In this document: positions 31,704 through 63,298 of the stretch, one piece after another
How positions within the stretch are numbered: position 1 is the first letter of the stretch
Layout: every line of letters begins with the position of its first letter
Assembly (NCBI RefSeq): GCF_019968605.1
Contig: NZ_CP082966.1
Location: forward strand, 3,709,501 to 3,773,500
Direction: 5' to 3'
Origin: Polaribacter litorisediminis
GTDB lineage: Bacteria; Bacteroidota; Bacteroidia; Flavobacteriales; Flavobacteriaceae
Length of the DNA stretch: 64,000 nucleotides
Translations under genes and position numbers: made by a program
The notes under the pieces: model-generated
Told to the model about the DNA's origin: nothing
The model's input: only the letters and a program-made list of their open reading frames with translations
Databases searched by the model: none

Positions 31704-31830
31704 TTGCCAACGGTTAGTATATGAAAAGTAGACGATTTTGAAGCACCAAACTTTCGGCTAAGCACAAAGTTCGATACGAGCGAATACCCTTGATATTATT
31801 GATATTTCGCCTATTTTTTATAGCCATTGT
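31704..31830. repeat. attC-like palindrome P1 (split by intron)
   Basis: The left core TTGCCAACGG begins the element. It continues in the 3' exon at 33704 (TAGCAGTAGGC), giving a rejoined right core ATTGTTAGCAGTAGGC. Rejoined length is about 140 bp with only imperfect pairing between its own arms. It is the leftmost member of the array; no partner for its left core is visible to the left. Confidence 0.7.
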
Positions 31831-32008
31831 GTTTGCCCAGCATGGGCGTCTTTAATTTATCGAAAGATAAATAATTAATCTAGAGGGTGCAAGTCCCTTA
31901 TGGGCAAGGGTAACGCTTTGAACCATTAGTAAGTCGCAAGGTTGTTAACCGCGAGGTTAGAACTGAAGGAAGCGGAACTACAAAACTCGGTACTGACGAA
32001 CAGAAACC

Positions 32009-32034
32009 GTACCTGCCTGCCGGCAGGCAGGTAC
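32009..32034. repeat. 26-bp palindrome inside intron copy 1
   Basis: A perfect palindrome built on CTGCCTGCCGGCAGGCAG flanked by GTAC, within the 5' ribozyme part of the intron. The same element is at 36367-36392 in copy 2. Confidence 0.85.
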
Positions 32035-32343
32035 AGAGGCATAAGTATTTGGGTAAGCAAGCACATCATTGTAACGCCCCACGAACACCAAAAAGGTACT
32101 TATGCAGATACGGCAGGAATTGAGAGAAAGAAGATGCCATTACCTGAGGAGGTCTCTAGAGCCACGAGTTGGTTGTATAGAGAAGTCAGCAGAAGTCATA
32201 GTACTTACAGGAAATGAGGAGGGAAAAACCCTCACGGTCTCACAAGTAAGGAAGGACAGAACATTAAATTACGTTGCAATTCGACTAGGAGGCATTGCTA
32301 GCCTAGTCTTAGCGCAACAGGAGTAAACAAATTATTTAAAACT

Positions 32344-33624
32344 ATGATTGCCCAAGTATTAGAAGCTACGAATCTTTATAAAGCAGCACGTCAAGTTATG
32401 CGCAATAAAGGAGCAAGCGGAATAGACAGTATGTCTCATCAAAAACTCCCTGAATACATTAGGGAAAATAGGTCAGAACTACTGCTATCCATTTGTAATA
32501 ATAGCTATGTACCACAAGCAATTTTAGGAGTAACGATCCCTAAAGGAAAAGGTAAAACTTGACTTTTAGGAATACCAACGGTAGTAGACAGATGGTTACA
32601 ACAGGCAGTAAGTCAGCAATTAATGACTAAGTTCGAATACGAATTTGAAACCTTTAGTTACGGATTTCGCCCACATAAGAACATCCAAAAAGCAGTACTA
32701 CAAGCCCAGCAATACATCAATGATGGCTATCAGGATATTGTAGATATTGACTTAAAAGGATTCTTCGATGAAGTCGACCATTGCATCCTACTACAACTTA
32801 TTTACAACAAAGTACAATGCTCAACCACCTTGCGTTTAATCCGGAAATGGCTTAGAGTTCCCATATCAATACATGGAAAACTCCATAAACGCCGAAAAGG
32901 AATTCCGCAAGGCAGTCCAATAAGTCCCTTACTGTCTAATATTATATTAGACGTTCTGGATAAAGAGATGCAAAATCAAGGTTTACGATACGTTCGCTAT
33001 GCGGATGATTTTAGTATATATGCTAAAAGCAAAAGCGAGGCAAAACGAATAGGAAATAGCATTTATTTGTTTCTTAGAGACAAATTAAAACTACCTATAA
33101 ACAAAGCCAAGAGTGGTATACGCAGACCTGTAAATTTTAAATTGCTAGGACACGGTTTTGTGCCAATCTATAAGAAAGGTATAAAAGGGCAGTATCAACT
33201 AGTAGTAAAACAGGCAAGTTGGGAAAAGTTTAAGCGCAATCTTAAAAGTTTAACCAAGAAAACCAAACCAATGTCTTTATTAGAAAGACTCGAGCGACTA
33301 AATCAAGTTTGCAGGGGTTGGATGAATAATTACCGATTAACAAACATTTATGCTAAACTTAAAAAGTTGGATGAATGGTTGCGAAATAGGTTACGATATT
33401 GCATTTGGCACGATTGGAAAAAGCTAGAGAGGAAACGTAAAAACGGCATTCAATTAGGCATCGAAGAAGGACAAGCGTATGCTTGGAGTAGAACAAGAAT
33501 GGGAGGTTGGGCAGTAGCCCAAAGCCCTATACTTAAAACTACAATTACCCTTTCTAGGCTTAAAAGAAAAGGTTATAAACCAATGATAGATTACATAAAT
33601 AAGCAGCAAACTTCAATTTGGTGA
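32344..33624 (+). pseudogene. group II intron reverse transcriptase/maturase with nonsense codon
   Basis: The frame starts MIAQVLEATNLYKAARQV and runs to QQTSIW-stop. It is interrupted once by TGA at 32560-32562 in the context KGKGKT(stop)LLGIPTVVDR, where relatives have Arg (CGA to TGA). The RT catalytic motif YVRYADDFSIY is intact, and the maturase X region has RLNQVCRGWMNNYR. No HNH endonuclease domain follows. The true stop of this gene is itself TGA, so reassignment of TGA is not the explanation. Confidence 0.85.
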
Positions 33625-33718
33625 ACCGCCGTATACGAGACCCGTACGTACGGTGGTGTGAGAGGCGCACTGGCTACCTTTGGTAGTCAGCCGTCTACTC
33701 GATTAGCAGTAGGCTTTT

Positions 33719-34627
33719 TTAATTTAAGTTTCTATATTCCAGTGGTGTTTTACCTGTTTTTTGTTTGAATAGTTTATTAAAATATTGTGGATATTCAAAT
33801 CCTAAACTGTAAGCAATTTCATTGATGTTTTTTTCTGTATTTATCAAATAAGTTTTTGCTTGTTCTATTAGGTAAAAATGAATATGTTCTTGAGCGTTTT
33901 TACCTGTTTCTTTTTTTAATAGGTCGCTTAAATAACTAGGCGATAAATTTACCTGTTCAGCTAAAAACTTAACGCTTGGCAAACCTTGTTCTTTTACATT
34001 AGTTGTAGCAAAATAATTATTTAAAATGGTTTCTATTTGAGCCATAATCGACTTGTTTGTTTGGCTTCTTGTAATCATTTGTCTGCCATAAAATCTTGAA
34101 CAATAATTCAATAATAATTCAATGGTTGAAACAATAATGTGTTGGCTATGCACATCAATATTTTCTTGAAGTTCGGTCTGAATTTTTTGGACACATTCAA
34201 ATAAAATATTTTTCTCTTTGTCTGAAAGATGAAGTGCTTCTGATACCTCATAATTAAAAAAGCTATAGCTTTTCAATTTGTCATTTAATGAAGTTGCCCT
34301 AATTAAGTCAGGATGAAAAAACAAACCCCAACCCATCATATTCTCATTAGGTTCAATTTCATTATCAATTTCAATAGTTTGGTTAGGTGCAATACATATT
34401 AAATTACCGTCTTGAAAATCTATTGCTTTTCTGCCGTATTTGATATTGTTTTTGCAATAGTTTTTAAACATGACTGAATAAAAGTCAGTAGTGATTTTAG
34501 AATATTCCTCAACTTGCTCACTTACTTTACTAAAATCTAAAACGGCTACTAACGGATGATGACTATTGCCTAAATTGAATAATTTATATAAGTCTGCAAC
34601 GCTATGAAGATTGATTATTTCTTTCAT
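33719..34627 (-). CDS. AraC-family transcriptional regulator
   Basis: A 302-residue regulator. The C-terminal AraC DNA-binding domain has two HTHs, with VKFLAEQVNLSPSYLSDLLK and INEIAYSLGFEYPQYFNKLF, ending TPLEYRNLN. The N-terminal 190 residues form the effector domain. It overlaps by 4 nt (ATGA) the membrane-protein gene upstream, and the SDR gene precedes that, so the three form one cassette-like operon between palindromes P1 and P2. It may control the SDR gene. Confidence 0.88.
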   Translation of the reverse strand: MKEIINLHSVADLYKLFNLGNSHHPLVAVLDFSKVSEQVEEYSKITTDFYSVMFKNYCKNNIKYGRKAIDFQDGNLICIAPNQTIEIDNEIEPNENMMGWGLFFHPDLIRATSLNDKLKSYSFFNYEVSEALHLSDKEKNILFECVQKIQTELQENIDVHSQHIIVSTIELLLNYCSRFYGRQMITRSQTNKSIMAQIETILNNYFATTNVKEQGLPSVKFLAEQVNLSPSYLSDLLKKETGKNAQEHIHFYLIEQAKTYLINTEKNINEIAYSLGFEYPQYFNKLFKQKTGKTPLEYRNLN

Positions 34628-35121
34628 TTTTTCTCAACTAATTCTTTTAAATGTTCAATATAAAAGTGACCACGTTTTTCAGCAAAGAAGTCTAAAGATA
34701 GTAAAACAGTACATTGTATAAAAAGTCCCAAACCAAAGCCTTTCCAAAATCCATAACTTGATAAAGCATACATTAAAATGATGCCTAAAAAAATCATTGA
34801 AATTTCAAAATAGCGATAGTAAACAAAGTTTTTAATCACTTTCTCCATTCGTGGAATTTCCTCTGATTGAATTTTATGGGGTTCATTTTTTAAGATGGTC
34901 TCAACTCTTAAATTGTCTATTGGACTTCTCATAAAAATTGTTGTCCCAATAACTATTTGAATGATTGAAAAAAACACTAACGGAATGGCTAAACCTTTCC
35001 AAAAACTTTCTTTCATAAAAAAGAAAAAGTAGACCGATAAAATGATAGCGAAAACACCGAAACCCATAAATAATAGGCTTTCGGCTTTTTCGGCATTGAA
35101 ATATTTTACAATTGGATCCAT
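34624..35121 (-). CDS. hypothetical four-helix membrane protein
   Basis: 165 residues with four hydrophobic segments: LLFMGFGVFAIILSVYFFFF, LAIPLVFFSIIQIVIGTTIF, FEISMIFLGIILMYALSSYG and GLGLFIQCTVLLSLDFFA. No domain recognised. It is translated between the SDR gene (12 nt upstream) and the AraC regulator (4-nt overlap). Confidence 0.65.
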   Translation of the reverse strand: MDPIVKYFNAEKAESLLFMGFGVFAIILSVYFFFFMKESFWKGLAIPLVFFSIIQIVIGTTIFMRSPIDNLRVETILKNEPHKIQSEEIPRMEKVIKNFVYYRYFEISMIFLGIILMYALSSYGFWKGFGLGLFIQCTVLLSLDFFAEKRGHFYIEHLKELVEKK

Positions 35122-35133
35122 GTTTCTACTATT

Positions 35134-35949
35134 TTAAAGTCTAAATTGTGATTTGATACCGCCAATAAATGTAGCATCATCATATTGGTTACGGTTTGCC
35201 ATAAGCATTTTAGCATCTTCTCCAGCTGTATATCTTAATTGATTTTTTCCATCTGTTGCCGCTTCAAATATTACTTCTGCCACCACACTTGCTGGCGAAG
35301 CATTTTCTCCCATTGTGGGCATTGCTGTCATTAATGCACCTACAATTTTTTGATATTCAGCCATAGATTCATCATTACTAAAATCAAAAGACCTGCCAGA
35401 AAAATCGGTTGCAATCATACCTGGTTCAACAATTTTTACTTGTCCACCAAATTGTTCTACTTCATAGTTAAGCGACTCAGAAATACCCTCAACTGCAAAT
35501 TTTGTTCCGTGGTATAATGAACCCAATGGAAAAGTCATTTTGCCTCCTATAGAAGAAATATTAATAATAATGCCTTTTTTGTTTTTTCTAAAGTGTGGTA
35601 AAACGGTCTTGGTGACATCTAAAAGTCCAATAACATTGGTATTGAATTGTCTTAAAACTTGGTCTCGACTAAATGCTTCCAATGGTCCATATGCACCATA
35701 ACCAGCATTATTAAGCAATACGTCAATGTTGCCAAATTTTTGAAGCCCTTCTTTAAATGCATTTTGAATGGAAGCTACATCTAAAACATCAAGTTGGGAG
35801 ACCAAAACATTTGCTAATTGTTTTAATTCCTTTTCCTTATCAGGGTTTCTCATTGTAGCAATTACATTCCAGCCCTTAGATTGAAATAACTTTGCAGTTT
35901 CTTTTCCAATGCCACTACTTGCACCTGTAATTAAAATTGTCTGTTTCAT
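35134..35949 (-). CDS. short-chain dehydrogenase/reductase
   Basis: About 271 residues from the ATG at 35949; an in-frame start 30 nt upstream would add a non-family extension. The classical SDR motifs are present: TGASSGIGKET near the N-terminus, NNAGYG, the catalytic Ser in ISSIGGK, and YHGTKFAVEG (YxxxK). NAD(P)-dependent oxidoreductase with unknown substrate. It is the first gene of the three-gene unit flanked by palindromes P2 (upstream) and P1 (downstream). Confidence 0.88.
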   Translation of the reverse strand: MKQTILITGASSGIGKETAKLFQSKGWNVIATMRNPDKEKELKQLANVLVSQLDVLDVASIQNAFKEGLQKFGNIDVLLNNAGYGAYGPLEAFSRDQVLRQFNTNVIGLLDVTKTVLPHFRKNKKGIIINISSIGGKMTFPLGSLYHGTKFAVEGISESLNYEVEQFGGQVKIVEPGMIATDFSGRSFDFSNDESMAEYQKIVGALMTAMPTMGENASPASVVAEVIFEAATDGKNQLRYTAGEDAKMLMANRNQYDDATFIGGIKSQFRL

Positions 35950-36059
35950 TTTGTTGAATTTGAAATTATTAGGGTGCAAAGTTGTTTTTTTATATTGGTT
36001 GTTAGATAATACAAATTCAGGATGTTTGTATTCTTTTTGCGGATTTTTGGTCTCAGCTT

Positions 36060-36188
36060 ACTGCTAACGTGTTTGTGTATGATTTCGTTGCGTGTTTAAG
36101 CACTAAAGTTAGCAAATAAATCACAGATAGAAAGTCCGCGAGGACTTTCGTAAGTAGGCTTTAACTAGCAATGAATTATACACCGTGT
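36060..36188. repeat. attC-like palindrome P2 (split by intron)
   Basis: Left core CTGCTAACG, then GTGTATGATTTCGTTGCG. The right arm AGCAATGAATTATACACCGT continues at 36830 with TGTACCCAG. The arms pair over GTGTAT/ATACAC and TTGC/GCAA. An inner hairpin GAAAGTCC...GGACTTTC is present. Its left core complements the right core of P1 (12 of 13 bases). Confidence 0.8.
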
Positions 36189-36829
36189 GTGTGCCCAGCA
36201 TGGGCGTCTTTAATTTATCGAAAGATAAATAATTAATCTAGAGGGTGCAAGTCCCTTATGGGCAAGGGTAACGCTTTGAACCATTAGTAAGTCGCAAGGT
36301 TGTTAACCGCGAGGTTAGAACTGAAGGAAGCGGAACTACAAAACTCGGTACTGACGAACAGAAACCGTACCTGCCTGCCGGCAGGCAGGTACAGAGGCAT
36401 AAGTATTTGGGTAAGCAAGCACATCATTGTAACGCCCCACGAACATCAAAAAGGTACTTATGTAGATACGGCAGGGATTGAGTAAAAGAAGATGCCATTA
36501 CCTGGGGAGGTCTCTAGAGCTACGAGTTGGCTGTATAGAGAAGTCAGCAGAAGTCATAGTACTTACAGGAAACGAGCTGTGAATAGAAATCACAGAGGAC
36601 TCAAAAATAAGGAAGGACTGAACGTAATTCTCTTCAAAATTCGTATAGGAGCACTAGTGGTAGCCTATGCCTAAACTAGAAGATAGTGCCGAGGGTGCAA
36701 AGAGCTTTGGTGTGATGATTTACGAACCGCCGTATACGAGACCCGTTTGGTTTATCCTGAGCTCAGTCGAAGGGTACGGTGGTATGAGAGGCGCACTGGC
36801 TACCTTTGGTAGTCAGCCGTCTACTCAAT
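36189..36829 (+). mobile_element. group II intron, copy 2, ORF-less (641 nt)
   Basis: It begins GTGTGCCCAGC and shares its 5' 350 nt with copy 1. It then has only a short domain IV region with no RT frame, followed by a domain V-like segment and the common 3' end ending CTACTCAAT. The domain V-like segment carries a 29-nt tract (with CCTGAGCTCAGTCGAAGGG) in place of 4 nt in copy 1. It sits in palindrome P2 at the same GT/T point as copy 1, antisense to the Fic gene. If active it would need a maturase supplied in trans. Confidence 0.8.
36367..36392. repeat. 26-bp palindrome inside intron copy 2
   Basis: The same GTAC-flanked CTGCCTGCCGGCAGGCAG palindrome as at 32009-32034, at the equivalent intron position. 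Confidence 0.85.
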
Positions 36830-36838
36830 TGTACCCAG

Positions 36839-37807
36839 TTATTTTAAACGGTAAATTGTTTTATTTTTTTCTCCAATTTTTTCAAATAAGCCTAATTCAG
36901 CTCCTTTTTTTAAATCTCTACTTGCTGTCGCTGAAGAGATGTCTTTAAAAATATCCATATAATCTTTTCTTGTAAATTCAGTTTTATTCAATGAAACATA
37001 ATATTCTAATCTGTCTTTTTCATTTAGTGTTCGATTATTAAAATCTAATAATTCACTAATTGAAATGTCAATTACATTTAGCATATATTCAATAAACTTA
37101 GTCGATTTCCCCGATTTATCAGATTCAGCCAAAGCTTTATAATATTTGTCTTGGTCTTTACTAATTAAAGTTTCAAAAGGCAAAAACTCAAAGATTGGAT
37201 ATTTTTCCATTAAAATTAAAGTTTGCCATAATCTTCCCATTCTACCATTTCCATCTAAAAATGGATGTATGAATTCCATTTCGTAATGGAAAACACAACT
37301 TTTAATTAATTCAATTTCATTAGACTTTTTTAAATATTCAAAAAGGTTTTTCATTAAGTATGGAACATTTCCAAAAGGTGGTGCTAAATGCTCAACTTTT
37401 GAGCCTTTTACAATTCCGACACTTTGATTTCTATATTTTCCGGAATTTTCAATTAAACCTTCCATTAAGTTTTGATGTGCTTTTAAAAAGGACTTTTCAT
37501 TAGAAGGATTGTATTCTACTAAATTTTCATAGATTTTAATTGCATTTAAAACTTCTAGAACATCTTTTTTGGGACCAATAACTCTTTTGTTTTCTAAAAG
37601 AGCTGTTATTTGTTCTTCAGTAAGTTTATTTCCCTCTATTTTTAAAGAAGAATGGATTGTTTTGATTCTATTCTGCTTTCTTAATTTAGGTGAAGGTTTA
37701 TTTAATAAATTAGCATTTATTTCCCCTATTTTTTCCGAAATTGAAGTTATTAACTTTAAAATAGAAGACGTTATTTCGTATGGTGGTTTCATTTTTGATA
37801 CTATCAT
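36839..37807 (-). CDS. Fic-family protein (class II type)
   Basis: A 322-residue protein. The Fic catalytic loop HPFLDGNGRMGR is at residues 181-192. An inhibitory-helix motif [S/T]xxxE[G/N] is in SSLKIEGN (53-60), N-terminal to the Fic core, as in class II enzymes. The C-terminus looks like a winged helix (YYVSLNKTEFTRKDYMDIF). Fic proteins usually transfer AMP to target proteins. It is a single-gene cassette between palindromes P2 and P4. Tandem palindromes GATACTATC over its start suggest autoregulation. Confidence 0.92.
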   Translation of the reverse strand: MIVSKMKPPYEITSSILKLITSISEKIGEINANLLNKPSPKLRKQNRIKTIHSSLKIEGNKLTEEQITALLENKRVIGPKKDVLEVLNAIKIYENLVEYNPSNEKSFLKAHQNLMEGLIENSGKYRNQSVGIVKGSKVEHLAPPFGNVPYLMKNLFEYLKKSNEIELIKSCVFHYEMEFIHPFLDGNGRMGRLWQTLILMEKYPIFEFLPFETLISKDQDKYYKALAESDKSGKSTKFIEYMLNVIDISISELLDFNNRTLNEKDRLEYYVSLNKTEFTRKDYMDIFKDISSATASRDLKKGAELGLFEKIGEKNKTIYRLK

Positions 37808-37818
37808 TTGATACTATC
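37797..37818. promoter_or_regulatory. tandem palindromic operator candidate at fic start
   Basis: Two copies of the 9-bp palindrome GATACTATC (37797-37805 and 37810-37818), 13 bp apart, cover the ATG and expected transcription start. A protein bound here would block the gene; its own winged-helix-like tail is a candidate binder. Confidence 0.5.
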
Positions 37819-37825
37819 AAATATA
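37818..37825 (-). promoter_or_regulatory. -7 promoter box TATATTTG of the fic gene
   Basis: This matches TAnnTTTG. Transcription would start near 37811, a few bases before the ATG at 37807, inside the tandem palindrome. Confidence 0.5.
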
Positions 37826-37865
37826 CAATCATTAATCTAAATTATCTTATGTAAGGGAATTTTTT

Positions 37866-37878
37866 AATTGGGCACAAC
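37866..37878. repeat. attC-like palindrome P4, left half (IS1182 insertion)
   Basis: AATTGGGCACAAC joins in sequence logic to GGTTACCATTGTTGTAGGC at 43411. Rejoined, it gives a core CACAACGG...CATTGTTGTAGGC like the other array elements. The rc of its left core, CCGTTGTGCCCAATTA, matches the right core of P2 at 14 of 16 bases. Confidence 0.65.
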
Positions 37879-37969
37879 GTGAGTCTGTGCAGAAACCTGT
37901 TTTAAAACTAAAATAAGTGATATTTACTAAATAAACTGTTTTTAAGCGACTTTAATTTTGCTTTTTGCT

Positions 37970-38698
37970 TTAGAGAATAGTTAATCCAACATGTTTTTTT
38001 GAGCTTAAAACAGCTTTAAAAAGTCGATATAGGTTAAAAAAGTAGTGTAAAATCCCTTTTAGATTGGTTTTTAGGTCTTCTGGCGAAAAAATAGACATGA
38101 GTCTTCTAAGGTTGTAGCAAATCATCATGATGTTTACTTCGGACAAGACATTGTTGTTGCCTTTCATAAGTGTATAAGTGAATCCCCACTGTCTTTTTAA
38201 CGTTCCAAATTGATGTTCGGTAACTTGTTGTCTTAGTCGGTAATAGTTTGGGTTCTCATTGACTCTTTTTTCGTTTTCTTCAAGGTCTTCTTGGTAGATA
38301 GATCGCTCAATGAATCGTCCGTTTTTATTCTTTGTACATAGTGCTCTTAACTCACAGTTTTTGCAAGCTTGCCTGTTTTTATAATGCTTTACTTTATGAT
38401 TTGCTTTTTTGTAGACCGTGCCATTGGTTCGTAAAGTTTGGTTTGCAGGACAAGTGTAATAATCGTCTTGTTTATTATAGCGAAATATTTGCATGTCAAA
38501 CAAGCCATTTTTTTGCGAAGAATGTGCTTTTGGTGATGAAAACGTACTGATGTTGTTTTGAGAGCAAATAGCAATATGTTTTCCCGTTGTATATCCTTTA
38601 TCGGTGAGGACATTCATGGTATCCAGTTGCAATAGTTCCTTGGCGTCAAGTGCCATTGGAGATAATGCATGTGTATCGTTTACCGTACCAGTACTGTC
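37970..38698 (-). pseudogene. IS1182 transposase, C-terminal half
   Basis: An open frame from near the IS110 boundary gives DSTGTVNDTHALSP, then LTDKGYTTG, a cysteine cluster (CPANQT...CKNCELRALC) and the final DDE-type helix VTEHQFGTLKRQWGFTY. It lacks the N-terminal part, which is at 42547-43323 in the same orientation. A short middle segment appears missing. Confidence 0.85.
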
Positions 38699-38701
38699 TT
38701 A

Positions 38702-38920
38702 AGTTAGCATTTTAATAAAAACACTAAATTAGACATATAAATTAGAAAGAACAAAAGAGGGGATTAAGGTTATTATATACGCAGAAGCTTTAGACTTCGT
38801 CAACATTGAAAATCACCTCTCTTTTCTACACAGATTTCGTACAGTTCTATGAGGCTTTTTAGACCTCGATTTTAAGTCGTTGAAACTCGCGTAGTATGTC
38901 CTTTCAAAAAACATTTTCTT
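38702..38920 (+). ncRNA. candidate bridge RNA region of the IS110 element
   Basis: The non-coding 5' region of the IS holds two small hairpins with similar loops: GAAG-CTTTAGA-CTTC (38784-38798) and GAGG-CTTTTTAGA-CCTC (38851-38867). This two-loop arrangement is what is expected of a bridge RNA with donor and target loops. The exact RNA ends and guide bases cannot be read by eye. Confidence 0.4.
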
Positions 38921-39892: not shown

Positions 39893-39924
39893 CGAGATTT
39901 TACTTGTTTTTTACCACAGTACTT

Positions 39925-40902: not shown

Positions 40903-40916
40903 TAGCAAACGTTATT
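40903..40916. repeat. attC-like right core P3 (remnant)
   Basis: TAGCAAACG directly follows intron copy 3 and precedes the stop of the lipoprotein gene. With the expected GT before the intron it reads GTTAGCAAACG. The rest of this palindrome and the matching left core beyond the gene start are missing. Confidence 0.45.
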
Positions 40917-42522: not shown

Positions 42523-42541
42523 TTTAATAGGTTTTAATTTT

Positions 42542-42549
42542 CAAATTTA
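42542..42549 (-). promoter_or_regulatory. -7 promoter box TAAATTTG of the lipoprotein gene
   Basis: This matches TAnnTTTG, at the junction where the IS1182 transposase frame loses its homology. The promoter therefore belongs to the inserted segment. Confidence 0.45.
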
Positions 42550-43323: not shown

Positions 43324-43410
43324 GTATAAATATACTGAATATCAATTATTTAATCGAATATTTAGACACTTTTTTTAAGGTGAATTAGGTGCTTTTTGAG
43401 ACAGTCTGAC

Positions 43411-43432: not shown

Positions 43433-43453
43433 CTTTATTGTTTTATTCGATTT

Positions 43454-50466: not shown

Positions 50467-50479
50467 TCTGTTTTTTCAA

Positions 50480-52103: not shown

Positions 52104-52171
52104 ATTACTATTTTAAATTCTGTGATTATTTTTTATTGTATTATTTTAATTTACTTTTAACAGGTTGGTAT

Positions 52172-53944: not shown

Positions 53945-53982
53945 AAATTTAGTTTTAGTTATTCAATTTTTGATATGAATAG

Positions 53983-54750: not shown

Positions 54751-54851
54751 TGGTTTAACTTATGAAATTATGGACACAATAAGGTTCAGAAAAAGAATGC
54801 TAATTTTCTTCATATTAGAATGTCATTTAAGCTTGAATCTAACATAGGCGA

Positions 54852-56012: not shown

Positions 56013-56136
56013 TGGCTTTTTCTAGTTTTTTAATTATAAAATGATTGATATTATTCCCAAGTATATAGTCTATGTGATATTTTTATAAAGTCTTTATACT
56101 TAAATATTTTTCAGTCTAATTTTGATTTTACTGTAA

Positions 56137-57051
56137 CTATCCCTTTTTATCATCTTTCCTTAATTTCAAATAAATTTCTCCCCTGTTTTTATCAAAAATC
56201 AGGTTAAACTGCTTGATGAAACCACCTCCCATTACACTCATTTGCTGACGCCCAATCGTCCCCTCAAAAAAGCCAACAGGCACATCGTAAAATTGCATCT
56301 CACCAAGACTAAATTGAGGCAATACGCCTTTTTTGGTCCTTAAAATATTGCCGAAAGAATCTTTCAATTCCTCCTCTGAAGTAATTTCAATATGTTGACC
56401 AATTTGTGTTTGGTTGGAAAATTTATCGTCAAAAAGCAAAGCACCCGAGTAGCCAGAATGAAGTAAAAAAGGATTCTCAAAATCTAAGCTGTCAATGCGG
56501 CTTGTTCCTGTAATAAAGAGTAAACCATCTTTATTGTCCAGATTCATTTTAATGTAATCTTCAGTAATAGGAAGGGTATGATGAAGCTTTATTAAACTTT
56601 CATCAAAATTGATCTCCACGATATAATCATCAAAGAAGTTTAAACCAAATTTACCATCTGTCTCAGGGCCAGATTTTTCATTTTCCCAAATGCTAAGGCT
56701 ATCAAAAACCATAGTGCCAATTTTTAAAGTATTGGCTTTACTATATCTTGAAGTGCCTTTACCTCCCCAGGCAGATGATTCCGATGTTTCTTTATTCCAT
56801 TTTATGCTTTTAAGGCGTGCTGAAGATGATTTTATTACAGATGCAGAATTAGCTGCTGTATGAAACATCAAATCGAGTGTATCAGTTGTATTCAAAATTG
56901 CTTCAACAATGATGTTGTTGTGTTTACTTAGTTTGAATGGAATAGTATCTACAACGGTAATATCCTTATTTTTCGGAACGGTATGCTTACACCCAAAAAA
57001 GCAACTTACAATAAAAAACATTAGAAGTTTTGGATAGATTTTCTTATTCAT
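56137..57051 (-). CDS. aspartyl-protease-like protein with both catalytic Asp replaced
   Basis: 304 residues, lipoprotein-type signal (LLMFFIVSCFFGC). It aligns with the retropepsin-like proteins of this window (FGLNFFDDYIVEINFDESL matches their inter-lobe segment). The two catalytic motifs read MFHTAANSASVI and LLHSGYSGALLF: Asp to His in both, and one Gly to Ala. It should therefore be a non-proteolytic member, perhaps a binding protein. No array palindrome flanks it. Confidence 0.68.
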   Translation of the reverse strand: MNKKIYPKLLMFFIVSCFFGCKHTVPKNKDITVVDTIPFKLSKHNNIIVEAILNTTDTLDLMFHTAANSASVIKSSSARLKSIKWNKETSESSAWGGKGTSRYSKANTLKIGTMVFDSLSIWENEKSGPETDGKFGLNFFDDYIVEINFDESLIKLHHTLPITEDYIKMNLDNKDGLLFITGTSRIDSLDFENPFLLHSGYSGALLFDDKFSNQTQIGQHIEITSEEELKDSFGNILRTKKGVLPQFSLGEMQFYDVPVGFFEGTIGRQQMSVMGGGFIKQFNLIFDKNRGEIYLKLRKDDKKG

Positions 57052-57090
57052 TTCATATTAATTATTGACTATATCGAATAATTCATTACA

Positions 57091-57465
57091 TCAAAAAGTA
57101 CATTTTGAGTTCTCTGGCTTCCATATCACCTCAATTTTTGAAAGTCTGTCATAAAGCTCATTTGTAATTCCCAAATTATCTCCGGCACAGTTCAGTATAA
57201 ATGATGCGTAATTTGCTGTGGGATCACAGTTGCCATAAAAGAAAACCCTTTCACCTTGACACAATGCCGTGGAATAATAGGAATATTCATCATTACGTAC
57301 CTCATCAATGGCTTCTTTTAGCCAAGCTAATTCCTCTATCGGGTTCTGTACTTCACAAAGATTTGTTGGTAAAATGTCGTCTTTTTCGCATGAAATAAGT
57401 ACGAGTGAAAATACCAAAATGACTGATTTTGTTAGATTTAAAATAGTTTTCATTTTATTCATCAT
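57091..57465 (-). CDS. small hypothetical lipoprotein
   Basis: 124 residues, signal VILVFSLVLISC. The start may be this ATG or the Met 12 nt downstream. The mature part has four further cysteines (LCEVQ, LCQGE, NCDPT, NCAGD plus SKC at the end). It has the look of short Bacteroidota secreted proteins with WLKEAIDE segments. It lies 39 nt from the aspartyl-protease-like gene and may be co-transcribed. Confidence 0.65.
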   Translation of the reverse strand: MMNKMKTILNLTKSVILVFSLVLISCEKDDILPTNLCEVQNPIEELAWLKEAIDEVRNDEYSYYSTALCQGERVFFYGNCDPTANYASFILNCAGDNLGITNELYDRLSKIEVIWKPENSKCTF

Positions 57466-57487
57466 TTAAATGTAGGGTATTGTTTTA

Positions 57488-58408
57488 TTAGTTCGTTACT
57501 CTTATCACGACATTCCCCTTCTTTCTTCCTGTGGCTACATAGGCATGGGCGTGCTGCATTTCTTCCAGTGAATATGTTCTATCGATTATTGCTTTCATCT
57601 CTCCCTTTTCAAAAAGAGTTTTAATAAATTCCAATTGGACTTTTGTTTCGGTCGCGTAGGATAATCCGTCGACAGAAACAAATTTTCCCTCAGGATTTAA
57701 GAGGTGTCTACAAGATTTTCCCTTGGTGCAGCCAACGGCATCAAACAGGATATCGTAGCGGTTGGGTTGCTTTATAAAATCGTCCCTATCATAAAAAATC
57801 ATACGTTCAACCTTCAGGGTTTTCATCAATGCTTCACTTGATGAACTGCAAACAACCGTTATTTCCGCCTTATAATATTGAGCGATTTGAATGGCGGCTA
57901 TGCCCACCGAACCTGTGGAACCTATGATTAAGACCTTGGGCTTGGACCTTTGGGAAAGTCGGGCCTTTTCAAGAAAGAAGTGTGCTGATTGTCCACCAAA
58001 GATTAAGGCGGCTGCTTCTTCAAAGCTTGCGCTCTCTGGCATTAAGCATACAGGACTATGCTCCTTTACGGAAAGGTATTCAGCATATGTTCCAAAATGG
58101 AAACCTGTACTCCCGAAAACCTTATCTTGTGGTTTAAATTGGGTAACACTATCCCCAACTTCTTCCACAATACCGGAATAGACCGTTCCCATGACGGGTT
58201 TTCTTGGCTTTTTTAATCCTAGAACTACTCGCATCAGTGGCTTTAAAAAGCCTTTAATCGCAAGGCTTCTAACTTTCACATCAGCAGAGTTTACTGCGGT
58301 AGCCATTACCTTTATCAAAAGATCATGACTGCCGCATTTGGGCTTTTGTGCTTCTTGTAACTGAAGCACTTCGGGACTTCCATATTTGGTACAAATAACA
58401 GCTTTCAT
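57488..58408 (-). CDS. MDR-family NAD(P)-dependent alcohol dehydrogenase / quinone reductase-like
   Basis: 306 residues. The GroES-like N-domain begins MKAVICTKYGSPEVLQLQE and has FGTYAEYLSVKE. The Rossmann motif is LIIGSTGSVGIAAIQIA (near residue 165). No catalytic or structural zinc cysteine pattern, so it is of the zinc-independent quinone-oxidoreductase type. The C-terminal YSLEEMQHAHAYVATGRKKG is family-typical. It is followed closely by the beta-barrel-like gene (4 nt apart). Confidence 0.88.
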   Translation of the reverse strand: MKAVICTKYGSPEVLQLQEAQKPKCGSHDLLIKVMATAVNSADVKVRSLAIKGFLKPLMRVVLGLKKPRKPVMGTVYSGIVEEVGDSVTQFKPQDKVFGSTGFHFGTYAEYLSVKEHSPVCLMPESASFEEAAALIFGGQSAHFFLEKARLSQRSKPKVLIIGSTGSVGIAAIQIAQYYKAEITVVCSSSSEALMKTLKVERMIFYDRDDFIKQPNRYDILFDAVGCTKGKSCRHLLNPEGKFVSVDGLSYATETKVQLEFIKTLFEKGEMKAIIDRTYSLEEMQHAHAYVATGRKKGNVVIRVTN

Positions 58409-58411
58409 TGC

Positions 58412-59032
58412 CTAAAAATTAAATCCAAAATGCAGCCCGGGCTCTCCATAGAAAAACTTTGACCATTTGTCATCTTGCTGCTTAAATCCATCTGGCATTT
58501 CTGTATGGTATATCCGATGGGTAACAGCAAGAGATGGTTCAATGAAAAACCTGTTTTTGAACAGTTTAATATGGTAGCCTAGACGGTAGGTGTTGAAAAT
58601 TTGAAAACCATTGTCGATTTTCTGATTATTCTCATCCATAAAACTTTGCCAGGCATTCATTACATGAATTCCCGTATAAAGACCTTTCCACCAAAATCGC
58701 TGATAAACCAGCGCAAAACCATACTCTCTAATGTATCCAGGAAACTTTTCTTCTGGGGCTTCAAAAGAAGCTCCGTACGGAATCCCGAGTGGCCAGGAGT
58801 ATTTCCAAGTTTTTAGCTCTAAGGATACCACATCCTTTTCTGTGATGCGGTAACCGAAATTTAGCTGTGCAAAATCAGGTTTATTGGTCTGTGCGAAATT
58901 TCCCAACACGAAAAAGGTGCTTCCAATAAAATATCTTTTAGAAGTGCTATCTTGTAGGATGTATTGTGCATTGACGTGGAAGCAATTTGCCATCAAAATG
59001 ACAAAACCCATCCTCATTATATTTTTTTGCAT
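58412..59032 (-). CDS. hypothetical outer-membrane beta-barrel-like protein
   Basis: About 206 residues from ATG 59032 (an upstream in-frame ATG at 59062 adds a poor signal). Signal FVILMANCFHVNAQ. Alternating aromatic and polar strands (YGFALVYQRFWWKGLYTGIHV, YRLGYHIKLFKNRFFIEPSL) and a terminal GLHFGFNF with final Phe, typical of outer-membrane barrels. Function unknown. Adjacent to the dehydrogenase gene. Confidence 0.65.
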   Translation of the reverse strand: MQKNIMRMGFVILMANCFHVNAQYILQDSTSKRYFIGSTFFVLGNFAQTNKPDFAQLNFGYRITEKDVVSLELKTWKYSWPLGIPYGASFEAPEEKFPGYIREYGFALVYQRFWWKGLYTGIHVMNAWQSFMDENNQKIDNGFQIFNTYRLGYHIKLFKNRFFIEPSLAVTHRIYHTEMPDGFKQQDDKWSKFFYGEPGLHFGFNF

Positions 59033-59113
59033 ATCTTTCTTTTGTGTAAAATGATAATACAAAAGTAGATTAGTGAGCTGCTATAACTCGTTCACTTAAG
59101 TTAAGAAAGCAGA

Positions 59114-59695
59114 CTAACCCTTATTTTTTTCATTGACTCTTGCTCTTAACCTACTTAAAGATTGTGGCTTGATTCCTAAAAAACTGGCTAATTGATATTG
59201 TGGGACCCGTTGGATTAAATCTGGTCGTTTTTCCAAAAGGTTGTGGTAACGTTGCTCAGGCGATGAGGTTTTGAAGGCATCAAAGTCCAATTGTTGTTTA
59301 ATCAATAGTTCTTCAGACAATACCCTGCACATCGTTTCAAACTTTGGGAATTTCTGAAAAACTTCAACTTCCATGCTGGGGTCAGAAACCGTAAGGATGG
59401 AGTCTTCAACGCAAGAAATAGAATATGCTGAAGGCTTTCCATTTAAAACACAGGGAGGAGTTAAGCCTTCCATTTCTGTATAGAAAGCGGTTGTTTTTTC
59501 TTCTCCATCTATGACATAGTATGACCGAATACAACCTTTTAATACAAAAAATCCTTTATTCGATTTTTGTCCTTCTTCCAATAAAACAGCGCCTTTATTG
59601 AAGGAGTGAAATATATCTAGATCAATCAGTGTGTTTTTTTCTTCTTCTGTCAACGAAATGTATCTTGATATGAAGTCAAAGAGTAAGTTTTTCAT
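59114..59695 (-). CDS. Crp/Fnr-family transcriptional regulator
   Basis: A 193-residue protein. Cyclic-nucleotide-binding-like beta barrel (FNKGAVLLEEGQKSNKGFFV) followed by a C-terminal HTH (YQLASFLGIKPQSLSRLRARV). The phosphate-binding cassette of true CRP is not conserved. It probably regulates the two downstream genes (barrel-like and dehydrogenase). Its ATG is 19 nt from the start of palindrome P9. Confidence 0.85.
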   Translation of the reverse strand: MKNLLFDFISRYISLTEEEKNTLIDLDIFHSFNKGAVLLEEGQKSNKGFFVLKGCIRSYYVIDGEEKTTAFYTEMEGLTPPCVLNGKPSAYSISCVEDSILTVSDPSMEVEVFQKFPKFETMCRVLSEELLIKQQLDFDAFKTSSPEQRYHNLLEKRPDLIQRVPQYQLASFLGIKPQSLSRLRARVNEKNKG

Positions 59696-59713
59696 TTATC
59701 GTCATGTTTTTCA

Positions 59714-59858
59714 AATTACTGGCAACGTATTTGTTTATGGAAAGTTGCGATTTTGTGAACGAGGAATTTCCGTAGGAAATTCAGAAGTTGATAAAATAGC
59801 AACAAACTTTGATAAAGCTAAAAATAGCAATTTTTTATAAACGGTGTTGTAAAAAGCG
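59714..59858. repeat. attC-like palindrome P9
   Basis: Left arm GGCAACGTATTTGTTTATGG then AAAGTTGCG; right arm AGCAATTTTTTATAAACGG then TGTTGTAAAAAGC. Inner hairpin GAATTTCCGTAGGAAATTC. One of the best-formed members. Confidence 0.85.
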
Positions 59859-60228
59859 TGATTAATTTTTCCATTTTTGAGTTTGTTTTTTTCAAGTAAT
59901 TTCGTTTTGCTCAAATTTCCAGAGTTTAGATTTTCTCAATTTTTTCAGTTCCGCAAACGTGCTAATTCAGATTTTGAGTAAGAACTCCAAATTTCTGCTT
60001 TTTCCACTTTGAGTAAATTTCCACGTTTCAAAATTCCGCAAACAGAGAAAATTTTTACTAGAATTTTCATTCGCGAGAGATTGTTCAGCATTTTTTTAAT
60101 TTCCATTTTTCACAATTTTGGATTGAAAAATTTTTCAACATATTCTGTTCAAAAAAGTTAAAGGTAAAATGCACTTTTAAAAGGACTTATGCTTTTCTGA
60201 GGCATTTCAACCAGTTTTTTACAACGTG
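59859..60228. other. cassette-like unit without a clear gene
   Basis: 370 nt between P9 and P10. Only a 53-codon frame on the - strand is present (59945-60106, starting MEIKKMLNNLSRMKILVKIF), basic and of unknown worth. The unit has the same matching ends as gene-bearing units (right core of P9 GTTGTAAAAA, rc of the P10 left core GTTGTAAAAA). Confidence 0.5.
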
Positions 60229-60354
60229 CTAGGTATATGGTAAGCAAGGGTTAGAATAACTTACTATTTCGGGCATTGAAAAAATAAATAAATATTAACT
60301 AATTTAAAAAAGCAACCTGTACCCCTTGTTTATTATATACTATGTTGTGTACAG
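60229..60354. repeat. attC-like palindrome P10
   Basis: Left core TTACAACG, then TAGGTATATGG; right part TTATATACTATGTTGTGTACAG. The right core GTTGTGTACAGTAC pairs with the left core of P11 at 13 of 14 bases across two genes. Confidence 0.75.
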
Positions 60355-60472
60355 TACTATTCAGATGCCAAATGATGTTTCAGACGAATTTAAGGAATAT
60401 TGTAAAGAAAATAACATTACTTTAAAAAAAACGGACGTGTTATGGTTTTTCCTCCGATGTTTATGGGTATAA

Positions 60473-60895
60473 CTAAAAATCTTGACTCTTTAAGTGACTA
60501 AATATATTTAAAGAAAAAGAATCAATTTCGTGTTGAAAATTTATATTACTTATTTTTAATTCTTTTGGTTTGTTTTCATTAAAATATTTTTCATGAGTTG
60601 AAAATGTTTTTTCTACAAATTCTCTTATTTTTAACAAAGAACTAATTTCTTGACTATAGATAATTTTACACATTAGTTCAGATTTATAAATAAGTACTTT
60701 TTTGTTGTTTATTTTATTAGTAACTAATGTCCTTGACCTTATTCCGTAATCAAATTCATTATTATTACTGTATTTATTATTAAAATAAATTTCTGATTCA
60801 CAAAAAGTAGTTGTAATTAATTCAGTTGAGTTTTCTAATTCATTTAGATTGAATTCAAATTCTAATACTTTAAAATGGTTGTTAAATATCTGCAT
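60473..60895 (-). CDS. hypothetical protein
   Basis: 140 residues, soluble, rich in Asn, Glu and Lys, no signal peptide or known motif. It lies 14 nt downstream of the gene ending at 60910, so the two are a pair within one unit between P10 and P11. Its base composition is more AT-rich than the core genes at the left of the window, as judged by eye. Confidence 0.55.
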   Translation of the reverse strand: MQIFNNHFKVLEFEFNLNELENSTELITTTFCESEIYFNNKYSNNNEFDYGIRSRTLVTNKINNKKVLIYKSELMCKIIYSQEISSLLKIREFVEKTFSTHEKYFNENKPKELKISNINFQHEIDSFSLNIFSHLKSQDF

Positions 60896-60909
60896 AATAC
60901 TATTTTATA

Positions 60910-61425
60910 TTATATGTATTTATTCCATAAATTAATTAATTCATTTTCGTATAATCTCCATATAATAAGCAATATAATACCACCAAAAACTGTAACAAAT
61001 ATTGAAAATAATAGTTTACCTAACCATTTTGATGTAGTTGAATTAATTATTTTATGTTTTATTTTTTTTATGCTTGGTATGCTTTTTTTTATTTTTTTAA
61101 TAAAAGATAAATTAGAATAATCTTTCCTTTTAAGTATTTTAGTTTGCAAATACTCTTGATAAAATTCTTTTGAAACAATACCTTTTTCAATTTTAACACT
61201 AATTCCATTCACACCATTAAATTGGTTTTTGTGTTTTTCAGCAACTCCTTTACTCATTAAAGTTTTAGATACTTTTCCATCTTTTTTAAGAAATATTACT
61301 TTTACTACATTTTCAAGATTTAACACTTCCCAATCTTTATATAAATCTTTTCTTACATATTCACTTATCCAATCCCCAAAAGACAAACTTATTTCAATAT
61401 TTGTTTCCCTGTGTTTTATTTTCAT
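60910..61425 (-). CDS. hypothetical protein with one C-terminal transmembrane segment
   Basis: A 171-residue protein. Cytosolic-looking N-terminal 125 residues with basic helices (FIKKIKKSIPSIKKIKHKI), then one TM (LLFSIFVTVFGGIILLIIW, about 138-156) and a short tail. No domain recognised. First gene of a two-gene unit; the downstream gene follows after 14 nt. Confidence 0.6.
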   Translation of the reverse strand: MKIKHRETNIEISLSFGDWISEYVRKDLYKDWEVLNLENVVKVIFLKKDGKVSKTLMSKGVAEKHKNQFNGVNGISVKIEKGIVSKEFYQEYLQTKILKRKDYSNLSFIKKIKKSIPSIKKIKHKIINSTTSKWLGKLLFSIFVTVFGGIILLIIWRLYENELINLWNKYI

Positions 61426-61465
61426 TCATTCAATTTCGGTCTACCGACCTCTATATTATAGTTTG

Positions 61466-61614
61466 TATTGTACACAACGTTGTTGTGTTATGGAAAGTTG
61501 CGATTTTGTGTGCGAGGATTTTCCAACGGAAAATCAAAGTGCATAAAAATGCAACTGCCTTTGGTTGAGCACTAAATATAGCAATTTACCATACACGGTG
61601 TTGTAAAATGCGGG
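61466..61614. repeat. attC-like palindrome P11
   Basis: Left core GTACACAACG, TGTTATGGAAAGTTGCG; right arm AGCAATTTACCATACACGG then TGTTGTAAAATGC. Inner hairpin GATTTTCCAACGGAAAATC. Body nearly as in P9. Confidence 0.88.
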
Positions 61615-61797
61615 TTTAAATTTCCTATTTATTTTTTCAGTCTGATTAATTTTCTTTTTTTGTAATAATTTTTGTTTCCAATTTTTTGGTTTTCTAAATT
61701 GCTAATTTGAGTAAATATTCCACAAATAAAATAATTCCGAAAGTTGCTCAATTCCGTAATTTTGGTTCTTCAGAGTTTGAGTTATGGAGTTAATTAT
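61615..61797. other. AT-rich non-coding stretch
   Basis: Lies between P11 and the stop of the MORN-type gene. I see no gene, only T-rich sequence on the + strand. Its texture is like the gene-free unit at 59859-60228. Confidence 0.4.
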
Positions 61798-62235
61798 TCA
61801 ATCTTCTACACCTTCTTTACAATCTTCAATCGTTAACTTTCCTTCTTTAGAGTAATGGTACCAGATTCCAACTCTGATGCCTTTTTTAAAGTTTCCCTTG
61901 TTCATTAATTTTCCGTTTCCGTAATAATAAACCCACAAGCCTTCGTATAAATCATTTTCTATATTCCCTTTCATTAAAATTTGTCCACTTTCATAAAAAC
62001 CAATAAACATTGTTGACTTGACATTTTTAAAGTAAGAAATGGTATTCAAGTTCCCGTTTGGGTAAAATTGGGTTTTTAAACCATACATTTTATCTGTTTT
62101 ATTATATAGAATTTCTCTTATGTCTCCATTTGTATAATAACTGATTTTTTCTTTAATATTATTATCACTACAAGATGAAGAAAAAAATATTAAAGATATT
62201 ATTAATATTAAATTAATAATTTTTATTCCCCTCAT
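61798..62235 (-). CDS. MORN/YwqK-like repeat lipoprotein
   Basis: 145 residues, lipoprotein signal (IILIISLIFFSSSC). Three to four MORN-type repeats: GLKTQFYPNGNLNTISYF, GFYESGQILMKGNI, GLWVYYYGNGKLMNKGNF, GIWYHYSKEGKLT. Proteins of this type are labelled YwqK-family antitoxins by analogy with Bacillus YwqK, but no toxin gene is adjacent. Single-gene unit between P11 and P12. Confidence 0.75.
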   Translation of the reverse strand: MRGIKIINLILIISLIFFSSSCSDNNIKEKISYYTNGDIREILYNKTDKMYGLKTQFYPNGNLNTISYFKNVKSTMFIGFYESGQILMKGNIENDLYEGLWVYYYGNGKLMNKGNFKKGIRVGIWYHYSKEGKLTIEDCKEGVED

Positions 62236-62357
62236 ATTTGCTTGAATTTTTTTTAGGTTTAATTTCCTCTTTTGGACTAATTCTCAATTTTTTCTAACTT
62301 TAAAAGCAAAAAGTATATTTAAAGAACTTTCGTTTTAGATTAACTTTTCCGCTAGTT

Positions 62358-62496
62358 TTTTACAACGTTGTTGTATATGGTTTGTTGCGTGGTTTAAGCA
62401 CCTAATATAGCAAATACAAACCGAATAGAAAATCCGCGAGGATTTTCGTAAGTAGGCTAGAACTAGCAATAAATTATATACGGTGTTACCACACGT
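62358..62496. repeat. attC-like palindrome P12
   Basis: Left core TTTACAACG, TATATGGTTTGTTGCG; interior TTTAAGCAC and hairpin GAAAATCCGCGAGGATTTTC; right arm AGCAATAAATTATATACGG then TGTTACCACACG. The right core matches the left core of P13, not its own left core. Confidence 0.88.
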
Positions 62497-62500
62497 TTTT

Positions 62501-63088
62501 TTATTCAATTTTATTAATTTCCGAAATATATTTCAATCTTAAATTTTCAATTCGATTCGATAAATTTAATTTGGCATTTAATGATTCGATTTTCGTTTTG
62601 TCGTTTTTAAAAAACTCAATTTTTTGTTCGTGTTTTTTTGTCACATCATCACTTAATGCTTTTAACTTATCAAGAAATTTTGATTGTAATAATGATTCTT
62701 TTGTTGTTCTGTCAGATTCTCGATAATATAGGTCGAGTAAACTTTGGAAATTTTTAGTCCAATCTTCTTTGCTTAATTCTGAAATATTTTCGTCAAACTT
62801 TTCTATTTTAAACTCTCCAATTTGATAATTATCAGACCAAAAATCCAAGTTGTTATTTTCAGTTTTTTCTATGTCTAAATAATTGTTTAAATATTCAGCC
62901 AATTTAACTTTCAGTTCCGCTTTTTTTTCAATTCCGATTAATTCAAGTTCAAACCTTTTGTATTTATTTGGTTCTAACTTTCTTGGATAACTTTCCATAT
63001 TTGAAAGAACTAATTTTAAATCACTGCTGTTTTGCTCGTCAATAATTTCGAGTAAAATAAAATTTATATTTGTTCCTACGATGTTCAT
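62501..63088 (-). CDS. hypothetical protein with coiled-coil C-terminus
   Basis: About 195 residues from ATG 63088; longer starts fall inside palindrome P13. The N-terminal part is beta-rich (MNIVGTNINFILLEIIDEQN), the C-terminal ~90 residues helical and charged (SLLQSKFLDKLKALSDDVTK), ending near LKYISEINKIE. No family recognised. Single-gene unit between P12 and P13, whose cores match across this gene. Confidence 0.6.
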   Translation of the reverse strand: MNIVGTNINFILLEIIDEQNSSDLKLVLSNMESYPRKLEPNKYKRFELELIGIEKKAELKVKLAEYLNNYLDIEKTENNNLDFWSDNYQIGEFKIEKFDENISELSKEDWTKNFQSLLDLYYRESDRTTKESLLQSKFLDKLKALSDDVTKKHEQKIEFFKNDKTKIESLNAKLNLSNRIENLRLKYISEINKIE

Positions 63089-63095
63089 TTCAAAT

Positions 63096-63298
63096 GTGTG
63101 GTAACGGTTAGTATAAGAATAGTAAGGGATTAAAAACGCACTTACTTTTCGGTTTAGCACTTAGCCAAATTTACAATTTTACCGTTATTTTTCTTTTAAC
63201 CGTCAAATTGTAAATTTGGCGGACTTTGTTAATATGTACCAACTTTGGGTTCGGCACTTAACCCTTATTATTTTTATACATTGTTAGCCACTGGCTTT
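63096..63298. repeat. attC-like palindrome P13 (long form)
   Basis: Left core TGTGGTAACGG, right core CATTGTTAGCCACTGGC. Interior has GGGATTAAAA, ACTTACTTTTCGG and a long inner stem with arms GCCAAATTTACAATTT and AAATTGTAAATTTGGC. The longest member, about 200 bp. Confidence 0.8.

Follow-up and report, generated by a model that had tools for sequence, protein, structure and literature searches.

A candidate integron-like gene-capture system outside the IntI lineage in Polaribacter litorisediminis

Polaribacter litorisediminis (Flavobacteriaceae) carries, in its 4.34-Mb single-contig genome, an array of about 51 kb in which genes lie between attC-like palindromes and whose head adjoins the gene of a 388-residue tyrosine recombinase. 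We approached this array from a 64,000-nucleotide stretch, C1:3709501-3773500 (C1 being contig NZ_CP082966.1), which is called the window here and which holds the left part of the array. We consider it very probable that the array is an integron-like gene-capture platform and that its recombinase represents a lineage separate from IntI, the integrase of canonical integrons. We rate it as a second integron lineage: it has the functional features of an integron that can be read from sequence, namely an attI-like site adjoining the recombinase gene, a tandem array of cassettes in one orientation, attC-like sites conserved as single-strand hairpins, and units that appear mobile and bounded between the G and TT of GTT. 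It lacks those that define a canonical IntI integron, namely the IntI-specific domain, a place in the IntI clade and GTTRRRY boxes.

From window position 31.7 kb to the window end, most genes are encoded on the minus strand, and palindromes, typically about 120-127 bp long, stand between them. A first-pass annotation, made from the letters of the window, had described a cassette array ending at 63298 with no visible integrase. Using a covariance model, R1, built from a consensus alignment of 18 sites hand-picked from 30 palindromes, we found 31 attC-like sites (expectation value (E) ≤ 0.1), nine in the window and 22 in the stretch beyond it (L009); at least two short palindromes, read by eye, were missed by the model. 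The array does not end at 63298 and runs on to about C1:3792624, its head lying about 19 kb past the window end, with the recombinase gene that the annotation had advised looking for just beyond. The absence of an integrase therefore holds within the window and fails for the genome; it is an effect of where the window ends.

If a cassette is taken as the DNA from the GTT of one attC-like site to the GTT of the next, its ends follow a simple rule. The start reads GTT-b6-N-A-c3, where b6 is a cassette-specific barcode of six nucleotides, and the end is the reverse complement of the start except opposite the A. We scored the 10 nucleotides outside GTT in 96 successive pairs, drawn from 28 sites of the array and 106 sites of homologous recombinase loci (plus-strand R1 hits at E ≤ 0.01; six minus-strand hits, three in L086 and one each in L091, L053 and L081, and weaker hits were left out). 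Ends matched across the gene at 8 or more of 10 positions in 75 of the 96 pairs, against a mean of 2.0 and a maximum of 8 of 96 in 2000 shuffles of the pairings, and the two flanks of a single palindrome reached this level in only 3 of 130 cases. The palindromes, their matching cores across genes and the dissimilarity of cores within a palindrome beyond GTT, all reported in the first-pass annotation, are thus real, and the scores that it gave for P1/P2 and P14/P7, the pairs that we looked at, conform to the rule. Among 84 pairs kept at a barcode match of at least 5/6, for which positions 1-6 are thus partly selected, position 8 matched in none and was A on the start side in all 84; positions 9, 10 and 11 matched in 93, 94 and 76%, and agreement beyond them was at background. 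Because this mismatch is fixed, the earlier scores of 12/13 and 13/14 reflect the rule and not noise. The canonical attC R boxes are given, in excerpts of PMC3053210, as RYYYAAC and GTTRRRY; the cores here do violate GTTRRRY, as had been seen, since their outer bases are a free barcode (GTTGTGT and GTTACCA, for example). No match to the rule occurred in window positions 1-31000 or in stretches L010 and L011, and two occurred in 220 kb of canonical integron loci.

The sites share a consensus of about AAC-ACC-GTATAT.. / ..ATATAC-AAACAC-GTT (18 sites). Over 116 aligned sites, three helices had 97.6% of their cells paired. Both sides had changed in 332 cells, where slid controls gave no more than 74, and the covariation score was 0.517, where slid partners gave no more than 0.070; this alignment was fitted to R1 and therefore leans towards the structure. 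By RNAalifold, which derived its own structure from the 18 sites, 11 pairs were obtained, 10 of them with double changes. AAC lay within five bases of the model border in 132 of 134 sites and GTT in 129 of 134. A covariance search had been proposed with the first description of the array, and R1 found sites across the genome (52 at E ≤ 0.001, including sites beyond the array) and in homologous loci.

The fixed mismatch distinguishes the two strands. In 77 of the 84 pairs position 8 forms A·C on the top strand and T·G on the bottom strand, the other seven resembling a one-base bulge, and of 116 sites at least 77 likewise have A·C (G·T on the bottom strand) as the first loop opposition of the L arm. 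By folding with DNA parameters, applied to 75 cassettes whose sites span no more than 141 bases, the bottom strand was more stable than the top strand in all 75 modelled circles and in 74 of 75 array contexts, and in 73 of 75 the fold was more stable in the circle than in the array context; in the array's own sites the bottom strand was favoured in 19 of 21. The T·G wobble set against the A·C mismatch suggests a mark of strand polarity, and, judging by these folds, the bottom strand would be the substrate. One could propose instead that the sites recombine as duplexes, with the barcode serving a Xer-type site as its second binding arm and the hairpin acting, for example, as a terminator. The attI-like sequence described below does resemble, by eye, the right half of an attC-like site. 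However, the barcode differs between partner sites, so that a shared double-stranded site would miss one arm, and this account leaves aside both the covariation of the L stem and the better folding of the bottom strand; we regard it as unlikely.

The recombinase is related to known families without falling within the cut-off of those that it matches best. Its top NCBIfam match is NF040815, at 204.1 bits under a curated cut-off of 220, and we accordingly rejected an assignment to the XerA or archaeal-type Xer recombinases. The integron integrase family TIGR02249 scores 191.6 bits against a cut-off of 265, in an alignment of two pieces, which span positions 2-176 and 239-315 of 315 in the genome search. 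The distance from GLR to HxLRH is 92 residues versus 134 in 24 of 25 scorable canonical IntI of our phylum sample (four more were not scorable), and both this distance and the alignment indicate that an IntI-specific insertion of about 42 residues is missing. In a FastTree phylogeny of 110 sequences, with family members under 260 residues and IntI outside 300-420 residues dropped and IntI taken solely from the phylum sample, all 28 IntI formed a clade with support 1.0 that contained no member of the array-associated family. Compared with IntI, the protein has about 100 additional N-terminal residues. In that region (residues 1-110), 4 of 38 family members match Pfam DUF5710 and 2 of 38 match HARP weakly (best E 0.028 and 0.024), on which we do not build; the region could be a reader of structured DNA filling the role of the missing IntI insertion. 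A weak similarity to ResT-TelK, the catalytic domain of telomere resolvases, appears in three of the 38 members (best E 2e-4). The best named relative is from Polaribacter sp. MSW5, at 79% identity. A protein search returned 829 relatives at E ≤ 1e-80 among 8000 scored candidates, and the 120 matches listed bear generic names (tyrosine-type recombinase, XerD and the like), one being called a site-specific tyrosine recombinase/integron integrase.

In the sections of PMC9668308 and PMC8138268 that we drew on, IntI is defined by an additional domain around patch III, which is called necessary, and the structure of VchIntIA bound to a VCR (Vibrio cholerae repeat) site, as described in part of PMC3053210, has the α-I2 helix of this insertion contacting an extrahelical base. 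A portion of PMC8138268 also describes an "integron-like" recombinase subgroup in which the insertion is not fully conserved, so relatives without it are already known as sequences. Could our system then be an ordinary integron after all, its IntI genuine though divergent and its attC sites of the usual kind, within reach of suitably tuned tools? The two-piece match to TIGR02249 fits such a reading. So do canonical IntI arrays, whose ends likewise match across the gene over 7-8 nucleotides; in the 28 chained cassettes, obtained at 6 of 11 loci, the match fades at positions 8 and 9 (71% and 36%). This search selects identity at positions 1-6, leaving positions 7 onward informative, the 28 rows include one sequence twice, and five of the 11 loci gave none. 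The lytic Polaribacter phage P12002L (L156) has R1 sites at 14503-14624, 38036-38089 and 39123-39244. This phage also fits, as attC sites are predicted in it by HattCI and, according to excerpts of PMC9892861, one recombines with attI1 through IntI1. Against an ordinary integron, the TIGR02249 score is under its cut-off, the insertion is missing, and the IntI clade excludes the family, on which grounds we rejected a true IntI. R1 gave nothing under E 0.18 in 220 kb around the 11 canonical IntI genes, so the sites are not canonical attC sequences, and all 28 canonical cassettes begin GTTA, with no fixed mismatch. We hold this explanation to be distinctly improbable.

We compared 80 homologous recombinase loci, the best 80 of 551 confirmed. 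On the recombinase strand the end rule, applied independently of R1, found 141 cassettes downstream and none upstream; on the opposite strand it found one downstream and 15 upstream. The 141 fall in 44 loci, where recombinase and cassettes are co-oriented, and the 15 fall in five divergent loci (L081, L085, L086, L087 and L090). These five have shorter recombinases, with frames of 276-311 residues. When the fixed A of the rule was swapped for C, G or T, 0, 1 and 1 downstream matches remained. Twenty further Bacteroidia loci, chosen for contig room (three with less than 250 bp downstream; L224 on the same contig as L074; other genomes may overlap), gave 42 downstream cassettes in 14 loci and none in the other three classes. 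R1 at E ≤ 0.01 gave 112 hits in homologous loci, 106 downstream on the recombinase strand and six upstream on the opposite strand. Past the stop codon lies an attI-like sequence with the consensus ATATAAACAA, then GTT, which, counted by eye, 16 of the 34 loci listed have exactly and most others have in variant form; a regular expression for it matched 3 of 27 short loci versus 15 of 1160 random windows. The first cassette found begins 34-137 bp past the stop in 34 of 44 loci, and the position of the attI-like sequence suggests that it is the insertion point. Among the 44 loci without R1 sites, 23 have less than 1.5 kb of downstream sequence and 14 reach the contig end within 400 bases of the stop, as would be expected if the arrays break assemblies.

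The family was found in 146 of 295 Bacteroidia genomes (23-row profile, E ≤ 1e-80) and R1 sites in 46 (E ≤ 1e-5, with at most 11 candidates scored per genome and stricter filters). They occur together in 36, that is, in 36 of 46 R1-positive genomes versus 110 of 249 others (Fisher p 2e-5, genome relatedness not corrected for). This association bears on whether the adjacent gene might be a bystander, the cassettes being moved by XerC/XerD, by a second family member at C1:2983710 or by an external enzyme. The genome does encode several tyrosine recombinases, and 10 of the 46 genomes with R1 sites are without a family member at E ≤ 1e-80. The tight positional link over 80 and then 20 loci, the conserved attI-like sequence past the stop and the co-occurrence all argue for the adjacent gene, and we give another enzyme only a slight chance.

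The cassettes themselves appear to have moved. Inside the array, three stretches are present in duplicate, of 681 bp (100% identity), 917 bp (96.8%) and 820 bp (94.8%), and their ends fall on GTT or AAC or no more than 14 bases away. One cassette recurs at two places of another genome, at 99.1% (805 bp aligned) and 99.9% (782 bp) identity; in the second comparison identity runs from GTT to one base beyond GTT, in the first it extends about 12 bases beyond GTT on both sides, and the neighbours differ in all three contexts. At the second place the cassette is preceded by an attI-like sequence, and by eye the ORFs (open reading frames) listed there include no recombinase-like one. The cassettes at G690:C1:3374127 (L178) and G694:C1:3641856 (L180) follow sequences resembling attI, AAAA(G/C)TTAG(G)CTTAT..TA, with GTT after the junction; no recombinase-like ORF was seen next to the one in L178, which may therefore be a secondary insertion site. 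Array DNA is matched at E ≤ 1e-30 by 83 of 97 same-genus genomes, the own one included; of these matches a part was listed, many being 120-180 bp long and lying over hairpins. The Polaribacter sp. MSW5 genome has the recombinase, and in the stretch compared it shares with the array, at E ≤ 1e-20, hairpin sequence only. Species, then, differ in the cassettes that they hold, and individual units reappear beside other neighbours; the first-pass annotation would have given up its reading had no units been gained or lost between relatives. Its proposal that units circularise through their ends as integron cassettes do draws support from the end rule, the covariation, the cassette common to another genome and the whole-cassette duplications. 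That the palindromes are dispersed structured repeats, of the REP (repetitive extragenic palindromic) or MITE (miniature inverted-repeat transposable element) kind, or terminators, whose matched ends are a by-product of inverted repeats, would fit the scatter of R1-like sites over this genome and its relatives and may hold for some lone degenerate sites, but it is scarcely credible for the array, where what recurs is a gene with one hairpin, bounded by GTT at either end and set among other neighbours, where barcodes agree from one side of the gene to the other but not within a palindrome, and where orientation is tied to the recombinase.

Several observations, besides the ten R1-positive genomes without a family member, weigh against a separate integron lineage served by the adjacent enzyme. 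That enzyme would be the catalyst of cassette exchange, and the case for this is one of association. The common node of the array-associated family has a support of only 0.40, so the deep relations of the family in the tree are tentative. The genome has 14 Phage_integrase matches, among them the second family member with a small array of its own. (This smaller site cluster lies at C1:2983710-2990100, behind its own divergent family member.) At 31 of the 80 loci no rule-conforming cassette was seen in either expected layout; a family hit alone does not prove an array, and many of these loci show none for want of sequence. Of the 27 short loci, just four hold a complete cassette. One weak R1 hit lies upstream on the recombinase strand (L021:3559, E 0.027). 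Twelve of the 96 successive pairs are unmatched, perhaps through missed sites or fused cassettes, and of 17 matches to the end rule in the array one looks like chance. Finally, six of 25 R1 sites tested outside the array lack AAC, and among the other 19 a perfect upstream start (9/9) was found in four and 8/9 in four more, control draws reaching 8 or 9 in 42 of 722.

Taking the platform and its separate recombinase lineage as the preferred reading, we propose the following scheme. The array head consists of the recombinase gene, the attI-like site after its stop and then the cassettes, in the orientation of the gene. In a free circle the cassette ends would be joined, and GTT and the barcode would pair into a 9-bp arm, followed by a brief fixed interruption and roughly 3 further bp. 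In the array each barcode stands beside a foreign one, which reduces the arm to AAC/GTT. The recombinase would join the folded bottom strand of an attC-like site to attI or to another attC-like site, between G and TT, and the strand to be used would be marked by the fixed A·C (top) or T·G (bottom) opposition of the R arm, together with the comparable opposition found in most L arms. Since self-pairing of the barcode is confined to the circle, the enzyme would prefer the folded circle as substrate, and integration would be favoured over excision. We lean, somewhat beyond an even chance, towards a general form of this scheme, in which integrons exist in two recombinase lineages, the second without the α-I2-bearing insertion, with strand polarity read from the fixed A·C/T·G arm positions, the folded circle preferred and integration favoured over excision.

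Like integrons with IntI, attI and attC (VchIntIA with VCR sites, class 1), the system has a recombinase gene, an adjoining attI-like site and a one-way tandem cassette array, and it shares with them AAC/GTT hairpin cores, a putative crossover between G and TT, cassette ends that agree across the gene, and cores that house group II introns. It differs in its recombinase (no IntI insertion, a place outside the IntI clade, the N-terminal extension), in cores made of GTT and a free barcode, in the fixed A·C/T·G of the R arm and in gene order, co-oriented in 44 loci and divergent in five. The window alone would look like a CALIN (cluster of attC sites lacking an integron integrase), an identity that we rejected since a recombinase stands at the array head. 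The recombinase belongs to the same catalytic domain family as XerA, XerC and XerD (NF040815, TIGR02225, TIGR02224); unlike these, it has an extra N-terminal region, an attC-like array and an attI-like site. Two further candidates were discarded: REP/MITE repeats, on the recurring unit of gene and hairpin with changed neighbours, and transposons with terminal inverted repeats, because the recurring unit includes the hairpin beyond the right inverted end.

Within the window (Table 1), each of the first two sites, P1 and P2, has its GTT core interrupted by a group II intron, which lies on the other strand from the cassette genes. Group IIC-attC introns are placed on the attC bottom strand. The P1 and P2 introns resemble them in lying in the core and antisense to the cassette genes; they match Rfam RF02001, class C being a putative assignment, and we treat them as passengers. 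Introns of the IIC-attC group are described after attC sites in excerpts of PMC8876359. Nested mobile elements occupy 37900-43400: an IS1182-type transposase gene lies in two halves, 37970-38656 and 42547-43323, and between these are an IS110-family gene, a partial intron reverse transcriptase and a 536-residue gene. Between 50616 and 59695 runs a co-oriented block of genes of about 9 kb without clear cassette boundaries, including a serine hydrolase (beta-lactamase family PF00144), an S41 peptidase, an aspartyl-protease-like protein and a zinc dehydrogenase. The ends of this stretch (about 50.6-59.7 kb) do not match each other, so the 31.6 kb first described include sequence that is not clean cassettes. 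PADLOC found no match in the 10 array proteins submitted.

Table 1. Positions of the array, its sites, cassettes and introns, and the recombinase gene (window coordinates unless prefixed C1)
Feature	Position	Strand	Basis
Left part of cassette array	31704..64000	-	R1 sites, cassette-end rule, attI-like site, recombinase
attC-like site P1, split by group II intron	31709..33716	-	R1 match 31709-31833; junction by eye
Group II intron in P1, with reverse transcriptase gene	about 31831-33703	+	Inserted after GT of + strand GTT; by eye
Cassette: AraC-type regulator, 165-residue ORF, short-chain dehydrogenase	33704..36068	-	Ends GTT-AGCAGT-AA-GCT / GTT-AGCAGT-AG-GCT (intron excluded), by eye
attC-like site P2, split by ORF-less group II intron	36066..36840	-	R1 match 36066-36189, 71.8 bits; junction by eye
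Group II intron in P2, ORF-less	about 36189-36829	+	Inserted after GT of GTT core; by eye
Cassette with Fic-like gene (under NCBIfam cut-offs)	36830..37880	-	Ends GTT-GTGCCC-AA-TTA / GTT-GTACCC-AG-TTA, by eye
Third group II intron copy, 3' end	40902		By eye
attC-like site	44420..44541	-	R1 48.3 bits
Short attC-like palindrome, missed by R1	45556..45597	-	By eye
Cassette: aspartyl-protease-like gene, 263-residue ORF	46060..47882	-	Ends GTT-GCCACA-CA-TTT / GTT-GCCACA-CG-TTT, end rule
Short attC-like palindrome, missed by R1	47880..47928	-	By eye
Degenerate attC-like site	50478..50604	-	R1 29.3 bits, E 0.0015
attC-like site	59724..59848	-	R1 113.4 bits
attC-like site	60223..60346	-	R1 81.7 bits
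attC-like site	61476..61602	-	R1 105.6 bits
attC-like site	62364..62487	-	R1 98.2 bits
attC-like site, 183 bp, extra inner palindrome	63103..63285	-	R1 37.5 bits
First attC of array (beyond window)	C1:3791837-3791960		R1/sequence
attI-like site, GCATATAAACAA/GTT junction	~C1:3792624		After recombinase gene, own array
Tyrosine recombinase, 388 residues	C1:3792729-3793895	-	Just upstream of first cassette, co-oriented with cassettes

Integron surveys, as described in parts of PMC9668308 and PMC9024848, depend on finding the IntI-specific domain and on a model of canonical attC sites. In our samples, canonical IntI over the cut-off occurred in 1 of 295 Bacteroidia genomes, against 105 of the 395 in the wider sample of the phylum, and the sections of PMC9024848 on IntegronFinder 2.0 mention that an earlier survey found only In0 elements in Bacteroidetes and name one complete integron, in Salinibacter ruber. 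A search of open PMC papers, preprints excluded, found no description of a non-IntI integron in Bacteroidia, which is not proof that there is none. Gene-capture systems of this kind appear to have been largely overlooked in Bacteroidia. If our reading is true, the class holds a large reservoir of mobile cassettes missed so far, and it becomes testable whether recombination of cassette hairpins needs the IntI insertion and how the strand is chosen without it.

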